DNA of 23,506 nucleotides from a virus. This document shows, piece by piece, positions 5,642 to 23,230 of this stretch; within the stretch, counting starts at the first letter, position 1, and each line of letters begins with the position of its first letter. Under the pieces are notes generated by a model that was given only the letters and a program-made list of their open reading frames with translations, did not search any database and had not been told where the DNA came from. Location of the stretch: positions 1-23,506 of the IMG/VR virus record IMGVR_UViG_3300010883_000493. One strand, 5' to 3'. The translations under genes and the position numbers were made by a program.

Positions 5642-5896
5642 ATGAAACCACTAAGAGATGAAGTAATAATAAAAGCTGTAAAGCAAGAAGTTCAAACAGC
5701 ATCGGGTATTGTATTACCAGATGCTATACCACCTAAGCAAACAACGGGTACAGTTATAGCAGTAGGTAAAGATGTAAAAGAAGTAAAATTAAACAATAAT
5801 GTTTTATTCGGAGAGGATTCGTACTACGCAATATCAATTAATGAAAATGATGTATTGTTTATAAAAGAATTGAATATATTAGCTATTTTAGATTAA
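5642..5896 (+). CDS. GroES-like co-chaperonin (Cpn10)
   Basis: An 84-residue protein that lines up with bacterial GroES nearly end to end: KPLRDEVIIKAV at the N-terminus, a mobile-loop region with SGIVLPDA, then GTVIAVGKDVKEVKLNNNVLFGEDSYYA, and the C-terminal VLFIKELNILAIL. GroES caps the GroEL ring; phage versions such as T4 gp31 or related proteins adapt the host GroEL for capsid folding. It is slightly shorter than the usual 95-100 residues, mainly in the roof-loop part. AAGGAG stands five bases upstream of its ATG. No GroEL gene is seen in this window, so it would work with the host ring. It is the last + strand gene before the convergent junction. Confidence 0.88.
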   Translation: MKPLRDEVIIKAVKQEVQTASGIVLPDAIPPKQTTGTVIAVGKDVKEVKLNNNVLFGEDSYYAISINENDVLFIKELNILAILD

Positions 5897-6039: not shown

Positions 6040-9000
6040 CTACTCTGAATCTTCTATTTCTTCTTGTAAACGCTTGTCTTCGTTATTTTTTCTATTTTTC
6101 TTAACTTCTGAGCCTACTCTATGAATAGGAAATCCTGTCATCCAGTCAACTGCCATACTAGGATTTTTAATACTTCTATGAATATCTCTTCCCAATCTTC
6201 CAAATGGAGCATATGTAGCTAATTGGAAATTTACAAATGTATCAAAATCACCTGATGCAATAGCAGTAATAGGTGGTAACACATAACGTGCTATTGGAGG
6301 TGTAACAACTTGTAGTGGAGCAAGAGCTGGTCCTAAAGGTCCTACACTAGGCCACTGACTAAAGAAAGCACGCTTTCTAGTTTCTTCATCACCAAACAAC
6401 CATTGAGCTGTATCTTGTAACCAAGACATAGGTGGAGATAAGGCATACTCAAATATAGTAGAAGTAAACACTGACGCTAATGCCATTGACATTAAATCAG
6501 CAGTTAGTTGTCGTTGTGCTACTTTACTATTATTAGTGTATTGGCTCCATTCTGTATATTGAGCACCTTTAAATATTGCTCTTCTACGCTTAATACTATT
6601 CCAAGCATAAGGATGGAAACGTGTCATAACACGACCCAATGACGTATTTGAATAATTACTTCTAAATGCTGAATGATAAATAAACTGTGAAGACTCAATA
6701 CCTTTTTTTGCAATATGCATCAGCATAGGTGAATTATATGGAAGTTCTTTCATTAGTGGTTGCAATACTTGTCTAGCATTAATATAATGTGCTAATGCTG
6801 CTGTACGTCTTAAAATAATTTCTGATTTACTCATAAATATTGAACCAAATTTTACAACAGCATCTTCAATACCATTCTTTATTCCTATCTCTCTTATAGT
6901 AGCTAATCTTTCTTTTTCATATTCAGTAGGATTTTCACTTAACATTTTTTGATTTTTCTTTGAAAACAATCGTTTTATAATACCTTGAGCAGCTTTTTGC
7001 ATATTAGCATCTCTAAAAGTTCTATTAATACCTGTTTCCTCAATATACATACCTTCCAAGAATCCTTCTTGAGAAAGCCACGTTTCGATATCTTTCATAC
7101 TTTTAAATTTTTCTAATCTTATTTCACCAGTTAAAGGATTTTTAATTTCGTACTTTGCACCATTAAACACTTCATTTATTAAATACGACTGATTAGTAGC
7201 TTGTCTAAATGGTTTCCAGCCTGTATCAGCATATATGTTAGTTGTACCACCAAACATATTAGTTACTGCTGTTTTAGGGTGAGACAATAATGATAATAGT
7301 TCCCACTTACCTTCAAAATCACTAAATGCTTTTATCTTTCTAGCGATAGCTATACGTTTTGCTGATTCAGATACTTTTTTCATTTCACCCGTTACTGGGT
7401 CTTTAGACATCCTTAAGTCACCAAATATACTAAACTCTCCTTCCTTATATCCAAGCACTCTTCCAATACGCTCTTCTTGTGTTCTAATAAAATTAGTAGC
7501 ACTATGGTCTGTTACCATATTATACATTGTTCCACTTTTGTTAATTTTATCAATATTTTTTATGGAGTTTAATTCTTGAGCTTCTCTCATTTTATGGTTT
7601 TGTATTTCAGTTCTTAATTGTTTTCCCGTTAAATTTTCTCCAACTTTTCTATACCAATGAGCTTCAGGAGCAATATGTTCATTTACTTGTTGTATAAACC
7701 ATTTTTCCTTATACTTTAATTCTCGTCCAAGTCTTTTCGTTAACTCTCGTGTATCTAAACCAGATTCAATATACGTATTTAATATTTGTTTCTCAGATAT
7801 AGTAACACCATGTAGTTCTAGACTACGACTAGTATTTAACCCTAACATATTATTTAAAGCATCTCTCATATATCCAGCCCAATGATTAGTATGGTCTTGA
7901 TTTTTCATATAGTTTTTAGATTCAAACGTATCAATTAAATGAGTACCTCTTAATCCAACTAATGTATCGATATAAGATTTAGAAGTAGACTTAACATATC
8001 GTGTCAAAACATTCAAATCTTTACCAAATCCAGGAATAGGAGTTTGACCTTTACTTCTAAACATACCAGCAACACCTACAGAACCAATAGCATCTTTACC
8101 TCTTCTTTGTCCAATAAATGAGTTCATAGATTCGCTCATACCTGCATCCATATTCTTAAACTTTTGTAATGATATTACCATATCATCTTTCATAGAACTC
8201 ATTATTTGTTCTTTTACTTCAGCTAGTGTTTCATATCCTTTTACTTTAGCTTTATACAATACTCTATATTCTCTAGGTAAAGACTCTTCGTTCATCATTC
8301 CAACTTTATGGATAATATCTTCCATTTTATTAGAAATCCAATCTCTAATATTTTTTTCATTAGATTTAAATGCACTATGATTGGTAAATGTCCAATAGTT
8401 AGACGGTTTACCATCTCTAGTTACAACTTTTACTTGTTCTTGTTGTGTAGCTTTACGCAATTCTGCTACTTCGTTTAATATTTTTCTTGTGATTGTTTTT
8501 TTATCAGCAGGATTAAATTTTGGATATAATAATTCTCCAGAAAATGGGTCTTTCATGTTTTTAATTGTTCTTAATATTTGATATTCATACTTGTAGTACA
8601 ATAGCTCGTTCATACCAATAAGATTATCCATTAAATTAACCTTAGTTTTTTTACTTAATTGTAGTTCTTTAAACTTACGATTTACTTTATTCATATCAAT
8701 AAAATTATTGGTCATTACATTATTTTGAGCTTCATCGGTTAATCTCCATTTACCAGGTGAAGTCTCTTGCATATTTTTAGTAATTACATTTTTCATAAAT
8801 GTATTATAAAAACCAGTAATACGTTCGTTAATAATATCAACCACTTCATTTGGAGAAGCTTCTCTTGTCTTACCTTCTGTTGAAGATTCATTTAAAATAT
8901 TAAACTTTTTATATTTTTTATCCATTCTTTTTATTTGGTCTTTAGAGTAATTCCAAGAATCTGTAAATTGTTTTATAGTAGTGCTATCGTAATGAATTTT

Positions 9001-12000
9001 AACAGCACCGTTTGAATCTATTCTTCCACCAAACTGCCCATTATCATATAGTCTTTTATTGATTGCAGCTTCCACTAATGTATTTAATTCTTTTTTAAGT
9101 GAAGCATCCTCTACATTCAATATTCTAAACGAATCCTTAACAATATCTTCAAAATAATCTTGGAACGTAGATGCCATTGTATTACCGAAATCAACTTGTT
9201 GTCTTACTAATTCTAATGTACTTGTAGGTACAGTTAGAGAACGCTTAGTAACAATATATTCTCCATCAACTTTATCTATAACGGGAACATCATTTCTAAC
9301 TTGGGTTAACATTTCTTTCATACGCATTTTACCAGCAACGCCAGTATTACCTTGGAAGAAATAATGATATTGTTTTAAAATAGGGTTTAAATCTTTTGCA
9401 GGAGGTTTATTAAAATCTAAATCAAAAACATTCTTACCAATTTTTCTAGCATAGTCTTTTAATTTCTCTCCCATACCTTTTCTACTAACATATACATCTT
9501 CTAACATACGTCTAAATGCTCTTAAATCGGGTAAATTCATTAGCTTAGGTGCTTTACCTAATACGGGTGCTCCAGTCAATCCATACTCTGCTGCAAATTG
9601 AGTAAATTCTCCTTCTAAATTAGTTGCTAAATGAGGATTTTGTCTTATAATGTCAGTTATTAATTGAATTTCTTTATTAATATTCTCAGTTGTAAGAAAT
9701 TCTTTTTTAATAATGTCATTTTTCATATCAAACATATCTAAAGGAACATCTCTATCTAATTGTTTTTCAAGAAAATCAATTTTATCTATCTTACTCATTG
9801 CATCATAATTCTTTATAATATTTTCAGCAGTAACTGAATCAACATCACTCAAATCTGTGTCTTCTAATAATTTTTTAATAAAGTCTACTTGTTCTTTGTT
9901 TTCTGCAATAATTAAAGATTCTAAATTTTCTTCCATTGTTTTTTCTTCTAATCGTCCCACTTCTTTTTCTACAATCTTTTCACCTTCTTTAGAAAGTTCA
10001 ACTATTTTTGTTTTTGGATTTAGTTTTTGATTATTAAATCTTCTTTTTGGAAGTGACCCCATTGATGGGTCTAATGGAATATTTACTTTTACAGCAATTT
10101 TTTCTGTATTTGTAATTTGACCAATCTCTATAACATCCTTAACTCCACGCAAAAAGTTAATTTTATGCTCAGTCGGTATAGATTCTAGCTTTAAAAAGTT
10201 AGGTCTAAATTGATTTATTCTTCCAATATGGTCAGGAAAAGATTGTGCCCATCCATTGTTTATAATAACATCAGATGGATTTTTACCAAGTTTTACTTGT
10301 TCTAATATATCACGTCTTCTAATTTGGTAATTTCGAGTAGCACTCGCTATAGCAATTTCTAAATTTGTACGACCAGGGCTTTCACTTAACTCACTTAAAT
10401 CTAAATCATATCTTTTTAAAAAGTTATCGCTTTTTTTAGCATTACCAGTCATAGAGCGTTCCATCTCATTGAAGTAACTTCTATATTGTCTTTTTCCAGA
10501 AGTTACATTAGATAATAATGATTGATAAAAAATATCTTCTAAAATTTTAATAGAAACAGGGTCTTTAAGAGTTAAACGAGATACTTCACTCATCATACCA
10601 TTTTCAAAGTCTTTTTCTCTATAACCTTCTCTGTCTGTTCCAAATTCTCGCAATCTTTTTGTAACATAGTTATCTATATGTTTATTAATATCAAACTCTT
10701 TGTTTAAACCGCCTAATGCAGTCTGTTGTTTAATAAAATCGCCTAATTTTAATTCATAGGCTACATCAATAATCTCTTGAATTTTGTTATTAATCTGAAA
10801 TGGTTTAAGCCCTTGTCCCAGTAAAGCTTCATTGGCTTGTGCTGCTCTTACTTCTAAGTTTAATAAAGAAGCTACTTTAAAAAACTGCTCTGGCAATCTA
10901 CCAGGGTCAAACTCTTTCCCTTTAGCATTTTTTTGATTTAATAAATCTTCGTAAACATTAAACGTTTTAATAATTTCACTATGAGATTTACCCTTTTTTA
11001 TAGCTTTAATTAAATCAGGATTAGCAGTTTCTATGAAAGATAATAAATCTTCAGAAATTATACCTTGTTTTATCATATATCCTAGTCTAGGGCTATCTTT
11101 TACCTTATGTAATGCTTTTAATAAATTGATGTATAAATCTGGATAAGTAGACTCATTCATTGATTGCAACTTAATTTCATACTTATTAAATCCATCTTTT
11201 TCTGTATAAGTTCTTGCTATGTCAATTAAACTATCTTTATAAAATTCTATATTTTCTTTGTCCACCATGTAATGTTCAAGAAATTCTTCTGCTAATTTAG
11301 ATACATTTCCAAGATTTGTTTTTCTTCCATTCTCATCTCTTCCACCCTTGATAGCTGCTAACCATTGTTGTCTAGCTTTTAATCCTCTAGATGGGTGTAC
11401 ATCAATACCGCCGATTCCAAATACAGCGTCTTGGTTCATTGCTATGTTTTCTTCCCCTTTTTTAGCGTGCTGCATTCTGAACTCTAGTTGACCTTTTTTA
11501 TTTATTCCGTCGTAAATATAATATTCTCTTACACCCTTATCGACTTCATAAGTTAATCCAAGGGTTAATATATCCTTATCAAATTTTGCTTGAGCTGCTT
11601 TTTCAAAACCTTTCGGTGCACTATTCAATTCTTTTTCAAACACTTCGTATTTTTTTTGTTGAGCTGCATCAAGTACTCTTACCTTACTTCCTTCTAAAAT
11701 ACCACTATTTAATAACCCTTCAAACTCTACTGTCTTATTTAAATATATTGTGTCTTTTAATCCATTGGTTAACGAATTATAATCTAATACTCTTATTGGT
11801 GTTGACTTCTTTCCAAACTGCGTCATAGTTGAAGTGTCATATGATTTCATCCATTTATGTGGAACAATATTAGTTAATCCTGTATTAGCACCTGTTACAT
11901 CAAAATACTTTGTAAATAATACATTCTTTAACCAATATGCTTCGGGATTATTTGAATTTTTAGTTCCATCTAATGTAAGATTTAATATGTTAGGAGCATC

Positions 12001-15000
12001 TTTAGACTCAAAGAAATTTAAAAGTTCTTCTGGATTCATTTTAACATTTTTGCCGTTAATTCTAATAGATTTTTTTGCAGTAAGTATAAAATTTCCATCC
12101 ATATCTAAACTATGAGATTTATTTTTACTTTGTATGATGTAGTTTAGGTGTTCTCTAATTGTTTGATTTAAGTTAGTTACTTGACCAATCATTTTAGATA
12201 TTTTTATCATTTCTAATGATTGGTCCCTACGTTCTTTTGGACTAAAAATATCTTCTACAGAAGCATTCTTTTTAGTAGGAGTTTTAGAAAAACCTAATTC
12301 TCTACGCTCCTTAGTTAAATCAAAATCTCTTAACATATCTTTTACTTCAGGTTTCATAAATGTTTTCTTAATAACTGAAGGAAGAGATTGATAAATAGCA
12401 GCAGCATCTCCATCAAAATCTAATCCACCACCTCTATTAGCATTTTCTTTAGATACAATAATACCTCTACCAGCAATATCAGCAAACCCTCCAAACTTTA
12501 ATGACAAAATACCTGAAGGATTTCCTACTGGACTACGTACTATAACCATAGACATTGCATCTTCTAAATCAAGTTCTAATGTTTTATTGCCATCTTTTTT
12601 AGCTTGCTTATACATATCAAAAACTTCGCCTAAAGGTTTAATCTCTCCATTATTTAATTGAATAGGCTTAGATTTATCTCCAGAGTGTAAATAAAAATTA
12701 TCATCAGTTAAGTTAATTTTACTTAACAACATAGGGTCTGCTGCTTTAAATCTTAAATAAGACATACCATGGTCTACTCTAGGTCTAGAAAATCTAGTAG
12801 CAATATAATTACGTAGTGTAGTTTCTATAAATTTAGCATTATTACCTACCATAGCAATAATAGGGTCATAATTAAATGTTTCTAATAAATCTTGAACAGA
12901 ACGCATTTCTTGATTTAATTCTTCTTTACCTACTCTTTCATAAGGTTCAATATTTGAAACCTTATCTTTAAATATAGATTTAACAATAGCGGACCAATAA
13001 GGTTTATTATTTTGACCATTATTTAAAACATTTACTATCTCAGCTACATCCAGCCTATCTATTTGTAAAGGTTTACCATCTACTAACATCTCTGCTGTTG
13101 GGTCTATAAAACCTTTATCTATTTCTAGCTTTACTTTAGCTATATATTTTGCATCACCTCGTGGTGCTGCTTTAAATAAATCTGTCATAGCATTATTAAA
13201 TTCTACACCAAAAGAATGATTTCTAATCATAGATTGACCCCAAGGCATACGTTGAAAGATTTTATCTTTAACTTCAGCTTCGGTTTTTGTAATTCTTATT
13301 TCTTTTGGTTTAACCTGTATGATTTCTCCAGCTTTTTTTACTTTATAGCTATCTGTTTTTGCATCATAGGCTACTTCTGCTTTTTTGTGCCTACTATTAC
13401 TTTTAACTGAACTATCAACTATTAAAATATCAACACCTAATCTTTTCATTAAATCATAAATACCTTCATGCGTAGCTTGTTCTGCAGATTTATTAAGTAG
13501 CATTCCTCTATCATTTAGATACTCTGCTTCTTTAAGAATAACATCCTTTATATACCCATCAGATTTGTTTCTACCAATCTCCGTATTAATTGTTTCACGT
13601 AATTCTTTACTGTAATATTTCTGACCATCTGATATACCAAATAAACCATTAGCGTCATTTATAATCATAGTTCTAATGCCACTTTCTCCAGTTTTAATAA
13701 ATGAAGAATAATCACCTTCTAAAGGTCTACCAGTTTCAAATGATTTTCTATAACCACTCCATTTAATTAAATTTTTAAAGGCTGGGTTATTGTTATATTT
13801 TTTAAATCCTTGTTTAATGTCATTAACACTAATATTGTTCATGCTTCCATCGGAATTTCTATGTAGCATACCAGCGTCTTGTAATTCGTAAATAATATTA
13901 CTTAAATACTCTTCAGCATATCTTTCTACTTGTTCCTCTTTAGTTTTACCACGAAATTTCATTTGTTCACTAATAAATTCGGATTTACCCATAGAAAATT
14001 CTAAAATTTTCATTGCCTTAGTCGTGTTAGCCCACTTAAATAACTCTTTCCTCATTTCTGTGGGAAGATAATTAATATCATTACGGTCTTTACTAAAAGC
14101 TATTTTTCTTATATTTAAAGCATTAGATGAGCCAGAGTTGTTTATATGACTAATGTATTCTTTAGTTCCATCGCTTACTAATTGACCGTTTATAGCTTCC
14201 CAACTATTTTTACCTTGAGTAAATCGCCCTAGTTCATCTCTAGTAGACTTAATATATGTATCAGGTTTATTTGATAGTTGAAAGTATTGAATCTTTCTAT
14301 CAATAGGTGTATCGTATAGAGTATTATGATAAGAATCCTCTCTAGACATTAACAAACCGTTATTATTCCCATCTGTTCTAGGAGTTGCAACTAATGTCCA
14401 ATCACCCGTTTTAGAATCTTTGATTGCTGTTAAAGAACTGCGTTCTGACATTGCTGCATAATCAAAATATATTTTATTCAATTCTGCATCAGTAAAACCT
14501 TTCTTATCGCCTACAACTTTTTCTTTACTTGAGATAAAATCAAAAGCAGCGTCTTTAAACTCGTTAATGTTGGTACTTTCTTGAGCTATTTTCTTTAATC
14601 CTCGTCTAGTTTCTGTAACGTCTATATTGGGAAAATCTTTTTTAACTCTAGTTAATATCTCTGAAACCTCTGTATCAATATCTATTTTATCGCTTTGTTG
14701 TCTATCGGTTTCTTCACCTACTTCTCTTTCAGTAACTGTTTTTTTATCTGGATTTTCAACAATATCTAGAGCTGCTTTTTCAGATGCATTTAATTCTTTA
14801 GGTTTTACAAATGTACTTCGTTCTTTTTCAATGAGATTATTTAATTCTATAATGCTTTTTTCTAATTTTATTACTTTGTTTGCCCAATTTTTTCTTATAG
14901 CTTTTTTTTGTTTTTGAGTTTTCCAAGCCATGTAAGGAACGTTATCTTTTATAGCTTGGTCTATTTCTGTTAATTTAGGTTTTTGAGAATCTAATTTACT

Positions 15001-17217
15001 TTGTTCAATTCCTATTTCACCTTCTAAATACTTAATTTGTTGTTCAGCTTCATAATTAGGGTTTTTTTCAATAGATATTTTCTTATCCAAATTAGTTTTT
15101 TTTACACCCATATCAATCAATATGTTATATTTTTTAAGTAAATCTGATTGAGTTTTAGGATTTTTATTTCCATGAAAATCTGGATGATTTCTCATTTCTT
15201 CAAGTGTTATTTCTCCTCTGTCCTTAGCATCTGCCACATCATTAGATTTCTTAGTCAACTCTCTAGCAACATTTGGATTGTCTTTTTTGAATTGAGCTAT
15301 TTCTTCTTGTAATGTATTAAATTCAACTTCATTTTTAGAAGGTTCTACAGAAGTGTCAAGTCTATCGTTAATATCTTTACGTTTTAAAATTTGAGAAATT
15401 CTTTGTGCATTATGTAAAATAAAATCAGCATTTTTAATTGGAACATTTTTATTAGTTGTGCTTATCATAGCTGCATTATTTGCTCTTGCTAATTCAGTTC
15501 TTTCAGCGTTAGTAAGTTCCGATACTCTTTTGCCATGGAATTTTTCTGGAAGAAAGTCATAGTTTGGGATAACATACTTAGGATTAAAAACATTTTTAGC
15601 AGTGTAGTTTCCTTCTTCTAATATTTCTTTTGTATTAGAAACCTTATCAAATATTTCAATTTTTCCATCTGTTCCAATATTTTTAATTTCTACTTGTACT
15701 TGGCTACCATCTTTATCGTAAACAATAATTTCATCACCAATCTTTGATTTAGCAACATCTGCATCTGGACGTTGCTCGATATCTTTTTTACGAGCTTCAA
15801 GTAATGCTTTGTTTTTAGTTACTAAATCTTTAGTAACTCTTGCTGATGCAGCTTGAAATGCAGCAACTTTTTGTCTTTTAGTTAAAACTGCATCACCAGG
15901 TACTCCCATATCTACTAATGCTTCTTTAATAGCTTCAAAAAGTAAATCTCCAGTATTTTTTCCCATAGATTCTATTCTAGATACTATGTGGTCTGCCATG
16001 AAAGCATCCACGTATTCAGCGGCTTTAGGGTCTTTAGTTTTTAGGTCTTTATACCACTCAGATTTTACATATTCACCATTTGCTACTTCTACTTGTTTAG
16101 ATACATTCAATAAAGAGTCTTTATCGCCCATTTTACCATTCATATGCTCTATAATAGCCTTAGTACCTCTTGCTTCGTGAGCAGGTCTACCACCAGCACC
16201 AAAGAAGAATCCTAATAAGTATTCATACGCTTGGTCTTCTGTTGGAGCTCCTTGATACGTAGATTGAAAACCAGTAAATGCTGAACCTGCACTACCACGT
16301 ACAAAGAAATCTATATATTCTGCTTTATTTTTATCTACTCCACCTTTTGTAGCAATAGTCCTAACAAAGTCTTTTGCTTTTCCTCTTAAAATACCTTTAG
16401 CAGCTACTATTTCAGCTTTATTAGCAGATGCTAATTTTTGACCTATATTAACATAGTTTCTAACACTACCAAAAAATGCTCCAGCCATTACTCCATGTTT
16501 AGCAGCATCAACCATACCTTCTGGACCTTCTTTCCTTGCTGATACGGCCATAGCTAGCCCTAAGTGTGCAGACTCTTCTAATAAATCTTTAAACCCTGGA
16601 TGTTGAGCTAATTTTTTACCTATAAAATTGCTACGCATAAATTCTTCGCCACCTAATGCTTTTTTACCATTGTCAATTACCCAGTCAGCTGCACGCATAG
16701 GAACGGAACGCAATGTAACATCTCCAGCTTTATTGGTCTTAGCTAACATAAATGGCTTTGTAGCTAAATCTCCTAATCCTTTTTGTACTTTTGTAGCTGC
16801 AGCTAATCTTGCTGCTCTAAATGCACCTTTTTTAGCAACACTACCTGGTAAACTTGTACCAAAAGATAATACACCCATAATAATATCAGGAGCAAACCCT
16901 AGTAAATGACCCATTTTATTAACCATGGCTTCAGTGGAGTTAGAAGGGTCATCAGCCCAACCTATAGTAGTGAATCCTTCTACTACTCCACTAGCAAGTT
17001 GATTTAATACTCCTACAATCTTTCCTTCATCGTCATCAAGATTGCGTTTAAAACCAATGTCGTACTTTTTACTTCTTTTTTCTAGGTCGTCAACTTGGTC
17101 TAACGTAAAGTCGTTATTAGGTTTAGAATATTCATTCATAGAAAGAGAATAAAATTTCTTGTCATCTATTAAGCCTTTTTCAAGAAGGCTAGTATAATAT
17201 TTATACTTATTACTCAA
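6040..17217 (-). CDS. Giant virion protein with RNA polymerase catalytic motif (DFDGD)
   Basis: A 3725-residue protein, probably packaged in the virion and ejected with the DNA. The start is TTG at 17217, six bases after GGAG. Residues 1560-1604 read V-R-S-P, then a Gly/hydrophobic stretch, then GLDFDGDAA with D1600, D1602 and D1604; this mirrors the RxP...NADFDGD catalytic loop of RNA polymerase beta' and the DFDGD of crAss-like phage virion polymerase and YonO. Further upstream a beta-like region (SDGQKYYS at 1196-1203, K1243, K1272) may be the second double-psi barrel. Residues 103-125 are hydrophobic, about 630-840 are coiled-coil-like, and the C-terminus (3571-3660) is hydrophobic and Pro-rich. 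The outer parts, over 2500 residues, have no function I can name. It is the last gene of the virion operon and far longer than phi14:2 gp66 (about 2200 residues). Confidence 0.85.
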   Translation of the reverse strand: MSNKYKYYTSLLEKGLIDDKKFYSLSMNEYSKPNNDFTLDQVDDLEKRSKKYDIGFKRNLDDDEGKIVGVLNQLASGVVEGFTTIGWADDPSNSTEAMVNKMGHLLGFAPDIIMGVLSFGTSLPGSVAKKGAFRAARLAAATKVQKGLGDLATKPFMLAKTNKAGDVTLRSVPMRAADWVIDNGKKALGGEEFMRSNFIGKKLAQHPGFKDLLEESAHLGLAMAVSARKEGPEGMVDAAKHGVMAGAFFGSVRNYVNIGQKLASANKAEIVAAKGILRGKAKDFVRTIATKGGVDKNKAEYIDFFVRGSAGSAFTGFQSTYQGAPTEDQAYEYLLGFFFGAGGRPAHEARGTKAIIEHMNGKMGDKDSLLNVSKQVEVANGEYVKSEWYKDLKTKDPKAAEYVDAFMADHIVSRIESMGKNTGDLLFEAIKEALVDMGVPGDAVLTKRQKVAAFQAASARVTKDLVTKNKALLEARKKDIEQRPDADVAKSKIGDEIIVYDKDGSQVQVEIKNIGTDGKIEIFDKVSNTKEILEEGNYTAKNVFNPKYVIPNYDFLPEKFHGKRVSELTNAERTELARANNAAMISTTNKNVPIKNADFILHNAQRISQILKRKDINDRLDTSVEPSKNEVEFNTLQEEIAQFKKDNPNVARELTKKSNDVADAKDRGEITLEEMRNHPDFHGNKNPKTQSDLLKKYNILIDMGVKKTNLDKKISIEKNPNYEAEQQIKYLEGEIGIEQSKLDSQKPKLTEIDQAIKDNVPYMAWKTQKQKKAIRKNWANKVIKLEKSIIELNNLIEKERSTFVKPKELNASEKAALDIVENPDKKTVTEREVGEETDRQQSDKIDIDTEVSEILTRVKKDFPNIDVTETRRGLKKIAQESTNINEFKDAAFDFISSKEKVVGDKKGFTDAELNKIYFDYAAMSERSSLTAIKDSKTGDWTLVATPRTDGNNNGLLMSREDSYHNTLYDTPIDRKIQYFQLSNKPDTYIKSTRDELGRFTQGKNSWEAINGQLVSDGTKEYISHINNSGSSNALNIRKIAFSKDRNDINYLPTEMRKELFKWANTTKAMKILEFSMGKSEFISEQMKFRGKTKEEQVERYAEEYLSNIIYELQDAGMLHRNSDGSMNNISVNDIKQGFKKYNNNPAFKNLIKWSGYRKSFETGRPLEGDYSSFIKTGESGIRTMIINDANGLFGISDGQKYYSKELRETINTEIGRNKSDGYIKDVILKEAEYLNDRGMLLNKSAEQATHEGIYDLMKRLGVDILIVDSSVKSNSRHKKAEVAYDAKTDSYKVKKAGEIIQVKPKEIRITKTEAEVKDKIFQRMPWGQSMIRNHSFGVEFNNAMTDLFKAAPRGDAKYIAKVKLEIDKGFIDPTAEMLVDGKPLQIDRLDVAEIVNVLNNGQNNKPYWSAIVKSIFKDKVSNIEPYERVGKEELNQEMRSVQDLLETFNYDPIIAMVGNNAKFIETTLRNYIATRFSRPRVDHGMSYLRFKAADPMLLSKINLTDDNFYLHSGDKSKPIQLNNGEIKPLGEVFDMYKQAKKDGNKTLELDLEDAMSMVIVRSPVGNPSGILSLKFGGFADIAGRGIIVSKENANRGGGLDFDGDAAAIYQSLPSVIKKTFMKPEVKDMLRDFDLTKERRELGFSKTPTKKNASVEDIFSPKERRDQSLEMIKISKMIGQVTNLNQTIREHLNYIIQSKNKSHSLDMDGNFILTAKKSIRINGKNVKMNPEELLNFFESKDAPNILNLTLDGTKNSNNPEAYWLKNVLFTKYFDVTGANTGLTNIVPHKWMKSYDTSTMTQFGKKSTPIRVLDYNSLTNGLKDTIYLNKTVEFEGLLNSGILEGSKVRVLDAAQQKKYEVFEKELNSAPKGFEKAAQAKFDKDILTLGLTYEVDKGVREYYIYDGINKKGQLEFRMQHAKKGEENIAMNQDAVFGIGGIDVHPSRGLKARQQWLAAIKGGRDENGRKTNLGNVSKLAEEFLEHYMVDKENIEFYKDSLIDIARTYTEKDGFNKYEIKLQSMNESTYPDLYINLLKALHKVKDSPRLGYMIKQGIISEDLLSFIETANPDLIKAIKKGKSHSEIIKTFNVYEDLLNQKNAKGKEFDPGRLPEQFFKVASLLNLEVRAAQANEALLGQGLKPFQINNKIQEIIDVAYELKLGDFIKQQTALGGLNKEFDINKHIDNYVTKRLREFGTDREGYREKDFENGMMSEVSRLTLKDPVSIKILEDIFYQSLLSNVTSGKRQYRSYFNEMERSMTGNAKKSDNFLKRYDLDLSELSESPGRTNLEIAIASATRNYQIRRRDILEQVKLGKNPSDVIINNGWAQSFPDHIGRINQFRPNFLKLESIPTEHKINFLRGVKDVIEIGQITNTEKIAVKVNIPLDPSMGSLPKRRFNNQKLNPKTKIVELSKEGEKIVEKEVGRLEEKTMEENLESLIIAENKEQVDFIKKLLEDTDLSDVDSVTAENIIKNYDAMSKIDKIDFLEKQLDRDVPLDMFDMKNDIIKKEFLTTENINKEIQLITDIIRQNPHLATNLEGEFTQFAAEYGLTGAPVLGKAPKLMNLPDLRAFRRMLEDVYVSRKGMGEKLKDYARKIGKNVFDLDFNKPPAKDLNPILKQYHYFFQGNTGVAGKMRMKEMLTQVRNDVPVIDKVDGEYIVTKRSLTVPTSTLELVRQQVDFGNTMASTFQDYFEDIVKDSFRILNVEDASLKKELNTLVEAAINKRLYDNGQFGGRIDSNGAVKIHYDSTTIKQFTDSWNYSKDQIKRMDKKYKKFNILNESSTEGKTREASPNEVVDIINERITGFYNTFMKNVITKNMQETSPGKWRLTDEAQNNVMTNNFIDMNKVNRKFKELQLSKKTKVNLMDNLIGMNELLYYKYEYQILRTIKNMKDPFSGELLYPKFNPADKKTITRKILNEVAELRKATQQEQVKVVTRDGKPSNYWTFTNHSAFKSNEKNIRDWISNKMEDIIHKVGMMNEESLPREYRVLYKAKVKGYETLAEVKEQIMSSMKDDMVISLQKFKNMDAGMSESMNSFIGQRRGKDAIGSVGVAGMFRSKGQTPIPGFGKDLNVLTRYVKSTSKSYIDTLVGLRGTHLIDTFESKNYMKNQDHTNHWAGYMRDALNNMLGLNTSRSLELHGVTISEKQILNTYIESGLDTRELTKRLGRELKYKEKWFIQQVNEHIAPEAHWYRKVGENLTGKQLRTEIQNHKMREAQELNSIKNIDKINKSGTMYNMVTDHSATNFIRTQEERIGRVLGYKEGEFSIFGDLRMSKDPVTGEMKKVSESAKRIAIARKIKAFSDFEGKWELLSLLSHPKTAVTNMFGGTTNIYADTGWKPFRQATNQSYLINEVFNGAKYEIKNPLTGEIRLEKFKSMKDIETWLSQEGFLEGMYIEETGINRTFRDANMQKAAQGIIKRLFSKKNQKMLSENPTEYEKERLATIREIGIKNGIEDAVVKFGSIFMSKSEIILRRTAALAHYINARQVLQPLMKELPYNSPMLMHIAKKGIESSQFIYHSAFRSNYSNTSLGRVMTRFHPYAWNSIKRRRAIFKGAQYTEWSQYTNNSKVAQRQLTADLMSMALASVFTSTIFEYALSPPMSWLQDTAQWLFGDEETRKRAFFSQWPSVGPLGPALAPLQVVTPPIARYVLPPITAIASGDFDTFVNFQLATYAPFGRLGRDIHRSIKNPSMAVDWMTGFPIHRVGSEVKKNRKNNEDKRLQEEIEDSE

Positions 17218-17231
17218 AAGTTACTCCTAAC

Positions 17232-18158
17232 TTATTGTTGATAAGATGGTTTAGTTGAAACTCGTGTACCTTCTAACTTTTTAGTGTCTTGAAGGTATTT
17301 ATTAGCTTCTAAAATACTGGCAACGTATGCAGTATAAAATGTTTTTTGAGAGCTATCGCCTTTTTTAGACATTTTATTTTTTACCCATTGATTGTTTACA
17401 AGAGTATGCATCAAACTATCTACTTCTATTTTTAAAGCAGCTCTTCTAGGATTTTTTAATCCAGCGTAACCGTTTGTTTTTTCTTGAGCTTCTAACAACG
17501 ATAACTCGGTTGTTACAACGCCAACTCTATCGCCAGTAAGTTTGATTAAATTGGTTGGGTCAAACTTTTTAATCCCAAACAATTTTCCAGAATATTGACC
17601 AGGCTGCAAGTCTCCTCTACCCTTAATCCACATATTGCCTCTTTTGTCATATTTTTGAGATTCACGTAAATCTGTTGCCCCGCCATATTTTGTTTGTTCT
17701 GCAGCTCGACCATAAGCTGCCTCTGCTAAACTAGCTTCCATAGCCAAACTTGCCGTAATATGTCTTGGGTCCTCTAAGTCGAGTAATTTTTGTTTACTTG
17801 CTGCCTCACCAACATCAACAACATATTTTAAATCACTTACATATTTTTCTGCTAATGCATCTGCTTCTCTATCTTCTGCTCTATCTTCTGTTTTTATAAG
17901 AAATGTTTCTTCTAACTCTAGTCCCTTTTTTTTGTATGCTAAATCTCCAGGTCTTGCAGCTCTTTCCATAGCTTTTTCTGCTTTAAGTTGCTCTAACTCT
18001 AAAAGATTAGTAGCTTTTGTTTCTCCTATTCTTATACCAGAAGAAATTTTCTCTTTTTGCTCATAAAGCTCAAGCTCTGAAGGTTTCCTAAACTCACTCG
18101 CACTGCGTAATAATCCAGTAAACGCCTTTACTCTACTTGTAAATAAATCATCTGCCAT
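17232..18158 (-). CDS. Helical internal virion protein (ejection-protein candidate)
   Basis: A 308-residue protein with AGGAG six bases before its ATG. The first 130 residues are almost entirely charged and helical (for example KATNLLELEQLKAEKAMERA, then TEDRAEDREADALAEKYVSD), predicting long coiled coils. The middle has a Gly/Tyr-rich turn (RGNMWIKGRGDLQPGQYSG) and the end is again helical. There is no enzyme motif. Placed directly before the giant gene and after the small membrane-anchored protein, it occupies the position of the T7 gp15 internal core protein, but sequence similarity is not visible. It may help carry the giant protein through the cell envelope. Confidence 0.6.
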   Translation of the reverse strand: MADDLFTSRVKAFTGLLRSASEFRKPSELELYEQKEKISSGIRIGETKATNLLELEQLKAEKAMERAARPGDLAYKKKGLELEETFLIKTEDRAEDREADALAEKYVSDLKYVVDVGEAASKQKLLDLEDPRHITASLAMEASLAEAAYGRAAEQTKYGGATDLRESQKYDKRGNMWIKGRGDLQPGQYSGKLFGIKKFDPTNLIKLTGDRVGVVTTELSLLEAQEKTNGYAGLKNPRRAALKIEVDSLMHTLVNNQWVKNKMSKKGDSSQKTFYTAYVASILEANKYLQDTKKLEGTRVSTKPSYQQ

Positions 18159-20127: not shown

Positions 20128-20345
20128 TATGCTTTCTCCATTTCTATTTTATACCACTCATTGTCTACTTTGTGATATAAAAATACTTGTTGTCCTTCTT
20201 TTACTATTTTTTTACTTCCTTGTGAACCTTGGTCATTAGTAGGAATTACTGACACTACTTTAGCTGGAGTATCCATTTGCTGTTGAATCTCTTCAATTTT
20301 ATCTTCCAACTCAGTTCTAATATTTGTTTTGTCTATATCCCACAT
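20127..20345 (-). CDS. Small virion-region protein, coiled-coil N-terminus
   Basis: A 72-residue protein starting in a TAATG overlap with the stop of the nozzle-like gene. Residues 8-26 form a charged helix (IRTELEDKIEEIQQQMD); the second half has a Gly/Ser linker and a beta-prone end with VFLYHKVDNEWYKIEME. This helix-plus-beta design is common in small phage fibre or trimeric tail-associated proteins, but no family can be named. It is translationally coupled on both sides. Confidence 0.55.
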   Translation of the reverse strand: MWDIDKTNIRTELEDKIEEIQQQMDTPAKVVSVIPTNDQGSQGSKKIVKEGQQVFLYHKVDNEWYKIEMEKA

Positions 20346-23230
20346 TACTTTACACTCTTTTCTCTAAATATAATTTGCATATCGTTAATTTCAAAATCAG
20401 TAGCTACATCAGACCCAGAAAGTCGTAATCCAAACCCTTTTATTTTATCAAAAGCTTTTTTATCGACAAATTCAGTCTTAGCTTTACGAATTGGTATATG
20501 AAGAGTTTTAAAGTTAGCCTCAGAACTACCATCTAATGTAGCTAAAATTTCTTCAGACCCATCATCTGTGAATCCGTATAAGTAAGCACCGTTACCGTTT
20601 TTATAGCTTAAATACACGCTTACAATCTTTTTATCGACACTTGGCTTGCCAAATGTATATTCTTTCGTTTTTAGTGCCATTTCGTCGATATTAGAAGCAT
20701 CTAGCTTACTTGGTGACACATTAAAACGCCTTAATTCTATGTTTGTTCCATTATACTTTTCAATCCACAACATTTTACCATCATTAGCATTAATAATATT
20801 AGTAGTATGATTCGTTGTAGTTCCCTTGCTTCTAGTTGTAATAGAACCAGACTTAAGTTCAAGAGAAATTATTGTCTGATTATTTTTAAATATATGAATA
20901 GTTTTTTCTACTGGGTCATAACTTATAGTCATGTGTTTGTTTGTTGCAGTATCTTCTTCGTAATAAGAATCCCAGTTTAAACGTTCTTGACCTTTCTTAT
21001 CCAATAAAAGGTCTCTAATTTGTTTTCCATCATATAAATAAAATCCAAATTTATTAAACCAAGCAATAAATCCTTCTCCACGTACTATGTGGTAATCTTT
21101 TTCACACCCTTTATATTCTAAAGTAGCTTCTAAAAATTCAATATCTCTAGCTATATTAATTACGTATAAATGATTTCGTTTAAATTCTAATAATTTACTT
21201 CCTAAAGACTCTAATGCTACAATGTCGTCTCCGTCATTTATTTCAACATCAATTCTATTTTTAAATGAAAACGTATCAAAAGCATTTACACTTGATTTTA
21301 AAATAGTATCATTGGCTTGTTTCAATTCTTTTGTTATAGGGTCTGTATAACTAATATTCCCAATATATAATCTTCTATTAGCCATAGTACTTGTTTTGTA
21401 ACCAGTTCCATGAGCTCCCATTGCATATTCATTCAACCTTATATAAGCTTCAGCTGATACATTTTCTGGTTTATCTTTAAGTTTTATACTTCCTAAAACA
21501 ACATTAGAAAAGTTAGCAAGAGATACAATAGCAGCTAAAGAACTAGGGTAAATAAAAAATGATTTTTCATCGGTAGCATTATGCAAGACAGGATAAGCAT
21601 TGTAATAATCTTTTCCAGCAGCATAACGAATTCCCTTTCTAAAATCTACTTCACATAATAAGTACTTAATTTGATTTCTAGCATAATCTTCTGCTGGTTC
21701 TACTTGAGAAGAATTTGTTAATGTATAGTTTGCTTTATGTTCGTTGTAATAAATTTTAACGCTTTTTATGTTTGGTAAATTTGGAACTCTTCCAAACATA
21801 TTAACATTAAGTGATTGATTTGCTTTTGTACTTGTTAATACTTTTTCTAGTTTTAATTGACTACGTTGTCCATCTAAATAAACTACTTCACTATATATAG
21901 TTACTACATTATCAGCTGTGCTAAAAAAAGTACCGCTACTATCGGAAGCTGTTGTATTTCCATTTGTTGTAGCTCTATCACCAACCCATAACGAAATATA
22001 AAAAGGTCCTCTACCGTTTGTGCCAGTTCCAGAAAAAAGAGTATCTGTACTTACTTGAGCTGTAGGAATACTAAATGTTTCCCCCCAAGAAGCTCTGTGT
22101 ACTATTGTTATATTAGCACCATTTGAATGAGTGGTTGCAGTTCCCCAAAGATTTCTAGTAACAGTTAACGAAGAACCTCCTACTGAAGAAATTTTCATAT
22201 AATCATTGCCTATTTTTATTATATCTCCAATAGTAAACCCAGTAACACTTGTAACTGCAATAGAAGTAGCTGTAGTAGACCCAACAGCACTGCTTAAAGT
22301 TGTAATAGTTGCAGATAATAATTCTGACGTATTATTGTGAACTACTACTTCATTAGTTGTAACATCTGGCAATTCTATATTTAATTGTTTCCAACCTACT
22401 TCTTTAGCAAATAAAGTTTGACCACTATCCCATTTATAAATATATACATCAGAACCAATTCTAGTAAAGGGATAACTTCCTGAATAAGCAGCAAAAGTTA
22501 TAGTTTTATTACCAGAGTTATAAGCAGTTATTACAATAGGACTAGAAAAAAATGTAATACCATTAGATATTTTTTTTAGTTTAATACTATCTCCAACAGA
22601 AAATCCCCCACTTGCACCCGTATGTATGATTTCAGTAGAGCCTGTAATTAAAACGTCACTAACTGCTAATTGTTTATTTGTACTACTAAATAAAACACCA
22701 CCCACGTCCAATTCTACGTTAAAGCCAAGATTATATTGTTCATTTACGTGAATAAGTTTTATAGGTTTGTTTCCTTTATTGAAACTAGTAGGAGTAATAC
22801 GTACCACACCATCAACAGCATTAAACACTACTTCAGAATATATATCTCCGTATGTAAGTGTTTTTGTTCCATAAGATACATCATTTAAATTTAATACTTT
22901 TACTAGACCACTATTTTGTGCTGGTGAAGTTTCAGATTTAGATGTATTGATAAATAACATTTCATTGTTTTCAAGAAATGCTGTTGTGTCGTCAATATCA
23001 TAATCGGCATTAAACTGAAATAACCCATTACCATATGTAATAGGAGTAGCAAAATCAGCTGATATAGAACCAGTATAATCTTGCGAAGCACCTGTAAGTT
23101 TTAACTTACCAGGAGTTTCAATAGATAGTGAATCTAACGCTTGAAATTGATTATCTTCAAGGTCACGAGGATTTGTTTTATTGTTTAATCCACCACTATA
23201 ATTTGATATGTTTAGTATTCCCTTTGCCAC
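20345..23230 (-). CDS. Tail nozzle / tail tubular protein B-like structural protein
   Basis: A 961-residue protein beginning with GTG at 23230, with AAAAGG about 10 bases upstream. The N-terminus (YSGGLNNKTNPRDLEDNQF, then LSIETPGKLKL) is the usual opening of phage nozzle or stabilisation proteins, which form the distal end of the short tail (T7 gp12, P22 gp10). Later parts show the matching propeller-like pattern: NRRLYIGNISY, then DGDDIVALESLGSKLLEFKRNHLYVI and a WFNKFGFYLYDG segment. Residues 311-379 hold a separate beta module (TTATSIAVTSVTGFTIGD, then LTVTRNLWGTATTH) found in many phage tail proteins. It is larger than T7 gp12 (about 790 residues), partly because of such insertions. Confidence 0.78.
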   Translation of the reverse strand: MAKGILNISNYSGGLNNKTNPRDLEDNQFQALDSLSIETPGKLKLTGASQDYTGSISADFATPITYGNGLFQFNADYDIDDTTAFLENNEMLFINTSKSETSPAQNSGLVKVLNLNDVSYGTKTLTYGDIYSEVVFNAVDGVVRITPTSFNKGNKPIKLIHVNEQYNLGFNVELDVGGVLFSSTNKQLAVSDVLITGSTEIIHTGASGGFSVGDSIKLKKISNGITFFSSPIVITAYNSGNKTITFAAYSGSYPFTRIGSDVYIYKWDSGQTLFAKEVGWKQLNIELPDVTTNEVVVHNNTSELLSATITTLSSAVGSTTATSIAVTSVTGFTIGDIIKIGNDYMKISSVGGSSLTVTRNLWGTATTHSNGANITIVHRASWGETFSIPTAQVSTDTLFSGTGTNGRGPFYISLWVGDRATTNGNTTASDSSGTFFSTADNVVTIYSEVVYLDGQRSQLKLEKVLTSTKANQSLNVNMFGRVPNLPNIKSVKIYYNEHKANYTLTNSSQVEPAEDYARNQIKYLLCEVDFRKGIRYAAGKDYYNAYPVLHNATDEKSFFIYPSSLAAIVSLANFSNVVLGSIKLKDKPENVSAEAYIRLNEYAMGAHGTGYKTSTMANRRLYIGNISYTDPITKELKQANDTILKSSVNAFDTFSFKNRIDVEINDGDDIVALESLGSKLLEFKRNHLYVINIARDIEFLEATLEYKGCEKDYHIVRGEGFIAWFNKFGFYLYDGKQIRDLLLDKKGQERLNWDSYYEEDTATNKHMTISYDPVEKTIHIFKNNQTIISLELKSGSITTRSKGTTTNHTTNIINANDGKMLWIEKYNGTNIELRRFNVSPSKLDASNIDEMALKTKEYTFGKPSVDKKIVSVYLSYKNGNGAYLYGFTDDGSEEILATLDGSSEANFKTLHIPIRKAKTEFVDKKAFDKIKGFGLRLSGSDVATDFEINDMQIIFREKSVK

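Follow-up and report, generated by a model that had tools for sequence, protein, structure and literature searches.

A giant protein of uncultured phages with a core homologous to the virion RNA polymerase of phage phi14:2

Introduction

Crassviruses carry RNA polymerase-associated proteins as virion cargo (PMC10172136). In the crAss-like phage phi14:2 (Crassvirales), which has a genome of ~100 kb and three large cargo proteins, the virion RNA polymerase gp66 (PDB 6VR4) is a single chain of 2180 aa, encoded among structural genes. In Thermus phage P23-45, gp96 is a two-barrel virion RNA polymerase fused to the tape measure protein (PMC10770324); its core is N-terminal (~1-1200 of 5002 residues), the tape measure is that of a very long tail, and an R-N-P stands 38 residues before the D of its DFDGD. 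The 3500-aa gp50 of coliphage N4 (Schitoviridae) consists of a putative membrane-inserting N-domain, a polymerase at 998-2103 (~1100 aa) and a large C-domain (PMC12633501). Its core is T7-like and lacks the DxDxD motif. The two-barrel fold with DxDxD is also found in YonO and in the eukaryotic RNAi polymerases QDE-1 and RDR2, which are not virion proteins and share ~10-12% identity over structural alignments with the core described here.

Here, we analysed a virus record from IMG/VR with a length of 23,506 bp (the window), which encodes a giant protein of 3725 aa. Like gp66, this protein is a single chain whose gene lies among structural genes, and its K, GSQ-like, R-x-P, DxDxD, GxxxN and DxxK motifs are collinear with those of gp66. 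Unlike gp66, it has other N- and C-terminal parts and no similarity at the tblastn level; the genomes of its relatives measure ~47 kb, and where phi14:2 has three large cargo proteins, the window phage has a single giant protein. It shares with P23-45 gp96 a two-barrel core with DFDGD inside a giant, presumed virion protein, but here the core lies inside the chain, joined to a putative ejection protein, and the two show no close sequence similarity. With N4 gp50 it has in common the three-part layout, the size and the adjoining putative ejection proteins. Single-chain two-barrel virion polymerases are already known; what is new is a large group of uncultured phages, the internal position of the core within a giant protein of the ejection type, and an N4-like architecture.

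Results

The giant protein starts at a TTG codon in the window, and the ATG start of its relatives lies one codon further in. RSP and DFDGD were found exactly where the preliminary description, made from the sequence alone, had placed them, and each occurs only once in the protein; from its composition, 0.003 DFDGD and 0.06 DxDGD would be expected by chance. The same description had counted ~1900 residues after the core, which stands, and ~1100 before it, where we found ~860 (core ~860-1830). The window is a fragment of a longer genome, given that the genomes or contigs of relatives are mostly 44-54 kb, so the compact gene layout noted earlier is partly an artefact of the cut.

Searches of Pfam, PHROGs and PDB sequences with the whole giant protein gave no match. 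Neither the window core nor the C-terminal part matched any of 50,697 INPHARED phages by tblastn, and the cores of three relatives (L014, L138 and L178) gave the same result in INPHARED. Searches of GTDB genomes, with either the core or the tail protein as query, found no relative, and thus no host can be assigned. No description of the family was found in open-access texts; a distant member may already be among the 23 RNAP families of PMC10770324. The T7-type polymerase profile PF00940 matched none of the records of 10 relatives, and since the control genomes were also without a match, this does not prove that a T7-type polymerase is absent from them.

Relatives were obtained from IMG/VR. One of 47.3 kb (G001) was reached via the C-terminal part, its giant ORF spanning the contig ends, and core profiles found L014 (27% identity) and L015/L016 (57-59% identity in the active-site region). 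A search with the 961-aa tail protein gave at least 108 relatives, of which 80 were kept; R-x-P followed by DxDxD was present in all 45 tail-protein or related loci whose giant ORF reaches the core, with a spacing from R to the first D of 39 (29 loci), 40 (6) or 42 (10). A separate search with the N-terminal module gave 196 relatives, and among the 80 kept, every long-enough ORF (59/59) carries R-x-P and, 39-42 residues later, DxDxD; the other 21 are cut by contig ends or have no usable ORF. The two-barrel core is an obligate part of this giant protein family. In L014, DVDID stands in place of DFDGD, and R-A-P is still 39 residues upstream (R1753 to D1792). This spacing equals that of the window protein and of gp66 (R1322 to D1361), and the change from G to I is also present in the DFDID of gp66.

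The core alignment comprises 35 sequences with 16-46% identity. The four barrel A residues and the R and P listed in Table 1 are invariant (35/35), as are G1577, G1583, G1598, D1600, D1602 and D1604, while F1601 (K, T, Y or V) and G1603 (I or A) vary. The alignment has the pattern expected of a catalytic site. The putative trigger-loop lysine of DGTKNS is conserved in 9/35 sequences only.

Profile comparisons show that residues ~860-1830 are homologous to phi14:2 gp66. The gp66 family was represented by an alignment of 72 sequences from IMG/VR. With a window family of five sequences, hhalign gave a collinear match to it (score 50.1, P 6e-5; 40 column shuffles <=21.8, reversed 19.5), and with the 35-sequence profile the score rose to 86-94 (probability 95-96%, P 2e-9 to 2e-8, 549-578 columns; 60 column shuffles <=21.3, reversed profile 16.8). 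Unrelated phage virion proteins scored 11-26. In masking tests, the lysine block before RSP and the part from RSP on each scored ~32 in the right place, indicating that the match is not due to DFDGD alone. The paired motifs (window/gp66) are SDG/tDAQ, SSVKSN/DGVKVG, RSP/RIP, GLDFDGD/GSDFDID, IGQVTN/VGITAN and DGTKNS/DNAKDP; K1272 of SSVKSN aligns with gp66 K1065 (97% conserved). A comparison of a two-member family profile with single gp66 failed, as expected at an Neff of 1.3. Profiles of 2 and of 35 sequences found no PDB chain, hence the homology rests on profile-profile and fold comparison. Between the window family and P23-45 gp96, hhalign gave a weak match at the active site (score 28.9).

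AlphaFold, run on the 35 core sequences with family sequences only and no templates, produced a core model with pLDDT 80.6 and pTM 0.83; an earlier run on 3 sequences (pLDDT 41) was discarded. The first match of this model in the PDB by Foldseek was 6vr4, the phi14:2 virion RNA polymerase (E 2.7e-10), followed by QDE-1 (1.3e-8) and RDR2. All 13 matches at E<=1e-3 were gp66, QDE-1 or RDR2, with phiKZ/AR9 and cellular enzymes at weaker scores. In the BFVD library, the model matched viral proteins without names as well as proteins from uncultured crAss-like phages. VIA-align gave Z 13.2 with QDE-1 (531 residues, 5.0 A), Z 11.7 with gp66 (727 residues, 5.9 A) and Z 9.9 with P23-45 gp64 (8f72); an apparently unrelated influenza polymerase reached Z 9.7, so that the values of 12-13 for QDE-1 and gp66 are only moderately higher. 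The model covers QDE-1 487-1141 and gp66 245-1638, and both stretches span both barrels, from which we infer that the barrels face each other. The core is thus predicted to take the two-barrel fold of gp66 and QDE-1, with both barrels on one chain, unlike the multisubunit cellular enzymes. As far as alignment shows, the model does not lack the two facing double-psi barrels, whose absence the preliminary description had named as evidence against a polymerase. Its proposal of a polymerase core finds support in the conservation, in the gp66 profile match with its shuffling, reversal and masking controls, and in the structure model.

The N-terminal module is the best conserved part of the giant protein (27-54% identity among relatives). 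It is rich in Gly and Ala, and its hydrophobicity peaks at 67-85 and 105-123; EGFTT, GHxxG, SxP and HGxxAG are invariant. In the C-terminal part, the two closest relatives share long invariant blocks towards the end of the chain. Neither part matched PDB sequences. When the N-terminal module, the core and the C-terminal part were each compared with N4 gp50 by hhalign, no similarity was found in any of them, and the likeness in layout is convergent. The giant protein of L014 contains a DUF7831 insert at residues 570-672 (locus 6341-16396); by eye, further inserts look like SLOG and NADAR segments and are reminiscent of phage 'polyvalent' proteins.

On the minus strand of the window, the order of transcription is the 961-aa tail protein, small proteins, the transglycosylase-like protein, the 182-aa protein, the 308-aa protein and the giant protein. 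The plus strand encodes a DnaB-type helicase/primase, a RusA-like resolvase and GroES. In G001, the strand of the giant gene also encodes the portal (phrog_156), terminase and major head protein, and the synteny with tail genes on the late strand extends to relatives. The giant gene is thus located in a late structural operon, opposite the early and replication genes, as expected for a packaged polymerase rather than for one newly made as an early or middle product. An ejection cluster like that of T7 had been suggested for this region. Gene order and sizes agree with gp14-gp15-gp16, but no PHROGs profile ties the proteins to T7 gp14-16, and among these genes only the transglycosylase-like one matches PHROGs; the L015 counterpart of this gene matches tape-measure PHROGs.

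Table 1. Features of the window and of related loci. Positions refer to the window unless a locus is named.
Feature	Position	Strand	Basis or remark
Giant protein, 3725 aa	6040-17217	-	TTG start; N-terminal module, two-barrel RNA polymerase core (predicted) and C-terminal part
N-terminal module, residues 1-345; putative membrane/ejection module	16183-17217	-	best conserved part
RNA polymerase core, predicted two-barrel, ~residues 860-1830	11728-14640	-	conservation, profile alignment, structure model
Barrel A segment, residues 1197-1272	13402-13629	-	alignment with gp66; invariant D1197, K1224, K1243, K1272
RSP, residues 1561-1563	12529-12537	-	35-sequence alignment; R1561 and P1563 invariant; corresponds to gp66 RIP 1322-1324
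DFDGD, residues 1600-1604; predicted catalytic Mg2+-binding DxDxD loop of barrel B	12406-12420	-	profile alignment; corresponds to gp66 DFDID 1361-1365
IGQVTN, residues 1677-1682; probably bridge helix start	12172-12189	-	aligns with gp66 VGITAN; G 32/35, N 28/35
DGTKNS, residues 1750-1755; possibly trigger-loop region	11953-11970	-	aligns with gp66 DNAKDP; D 29/35, K weakly kept
C-terminal part, residues 1850-3725 (~1900)	6043-11670	-	47-51% identical in two closest relatives
Putative ejection protein, 308 aa, directly upstream of giant gene	17232-18158	-	position; syntenic counterparts in L014, L015, L006; no profile match
Putative ejection protein, 182 aa	18168-18716	-	position and syntenic counterparts; no significant profile match
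Transglycosylase/lysozyme-like virion protein, 237 aa	18719-19432	-	phrog_4067 transglycosylase, E 7e-5
Tail-type structural protein, 961 aa, family marker	20345-23230	-	at least 108 relatives in IMG/VR
GroES-like co-chaperonin gene	5642-5896	+	phrog_3188; convergent to giant gene
Hairpin sites before gene 1082-1636 and counterparts	1015-1060 (window); L002:10677-10747; L183-L192	+ (window); - (L002)	
TTTTCTTTWTGRTTTYWTTTT sites upstream of small early genes	L193 13521-14738, L194 4273; L196 6019-7225, L198 15931; L007 14216-15447, L008 479	+ (L193, L194, L007, L008); - (L196, L198)	

The early-promoter region lies outside the window, and a candidate promoter was read in three relatives, G001, G002 and G004. 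There, the AT-rich motif TTTTCTTTWTGRTTTYWTTTT is found 4-5 times in each genome, where 0.2-0.65 occurrences would be expected. After refinement, ~15 strong sites were obtained, all on the strand of the early genes and for the most part no more than ~30-50 bp from the start codon of an early gene. The majority of sites in G001 and G002 cluster between the divergent terminase and early genes, and a seed-free search of G002 and G004 returned the same motif as the top repeated intergenic one. The distant relatives that were tested lack it, hence it is either limited to a close subgroup or wrong. On this evidence TTTTCTTTWTGRTTTYWTTTT is a candidate promoter for the polymerase of the giant protein, comparable to the AT-rich promoters of P23-45; in its form of hairpin plus T-run, it could instead be an intrinsic terminator or a leader element.

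The window has a near-perfect hairpin of 21-22 bp (-24 kcal/mol, z -7) that ends ~30 nt short of gene 1082-1636. In G001, a hairpin that is just as stable but differs in sequence occupies the corresponding place, and most of 10 other relatives have strong hairpins before this gene, some of them followed by T-runs.

Discussion

Our results indicate that the giant protein is very probably a virion-packaged, single-chain two-barrel DNA-dependent RNA polymerase within an ejection protein. Its packaging and injection are suggested by the gene order, the late strand and the N-terminal module, and by the precedents of gp66, P23-45 gp96 and N4 gp50; its activity is suggested by the conserved active site. 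The protein would be packed in the head of a phage of the short-tailed type and ejected through the short tail ahead of the DNA, with the N-terminal module aiding passage across the envelope. Once in the cytoplasm it would refold, and the polymerase would bind a promoter specific to the phage, on the part of the DNA that enters first, and make early transcripts, with two Mg2+ held by D1600, D1602 and D1604. By analogy with N4 gp50, the C-terminal part may have a role in packaging, ejection or regulation.

A two-barrel RNA polymerase need not be a virion protein, and the enzyme might be synthesised in the infected cell to transcribe middle or late genes, like P23-45 gp64 or YonO. The fold and the motifs are common to non-virion enzymes, and gp64 is among the VIA-align matches. 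However, the core is fused to ~860 residues on one side and ~1900 on the other, every long-enough relative has the Gly/Ala-rich N-terminal module, and the gene follows tail genes in a late structural operon opposite the replication genes, all of which makes a non-virion enzyme improbable. We give slightly less credit still to the idea that a fold derived from a polymerase has lost catalysis and survives in the ejection protein in a structural or DNA-translocating role. The secondary motifs do vary, namely the trigger-loop-like K and the F and G of DFDGD, but it is precisely the catalytic residues that never change among sequences of 16-46% identity, and a dead core would not be expected to keep D, D, D, R, P, K and K while the rest drifts. 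That DFDGD arose by chance in an unrelated structural protein of giant size, an idea in keeping with the lack of matches to the whole protein in Pfam, PHROGs and PDB sequences, has a negligible probability and was ruled out by the 0.003 expected occurrences, the conservation in 35/35 and 59/59 relatives and the profile and fold matches to RNA polymerases.

Beyond the proposal of an injected polymerase, we lean somewhat towards the view that these phages form a widespread undescribed lineage, in which a core of the gp66/QDE-1 type lies in a three-part ejection protein of the N4 style and, in close relatives, reads the AT-rich promoter TTTTCTTTWTGRTTTYWTTTT. The core known from crAss-like phages and RNAi probably serves as the injected transcriptase, too, in a large group of phages that have small genomes and no relatives among sequenced isolates. 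Two unrelated polymerase folds, T7-type in N4 and two-barrel here, seem to have converged on one layout of a giant ejected protein. The compact core may be useful for the study of the catalytic centre of cellular RNA polymerases in one chain, and the whole protein offers a model of a large enzyme that would pass a short tail and then refold. Moreover, the candidate promoter TTTTCTTTWTGRTTTYWTTTT in three relatives makes the hypothesis of host-independent early transcription directly testable. As a separate observation, a GroES-like co-chaperonin gene is convergent to the giant gene (Table 1); as a guess, such a phage protein could conceivably help to fold a very large protein.
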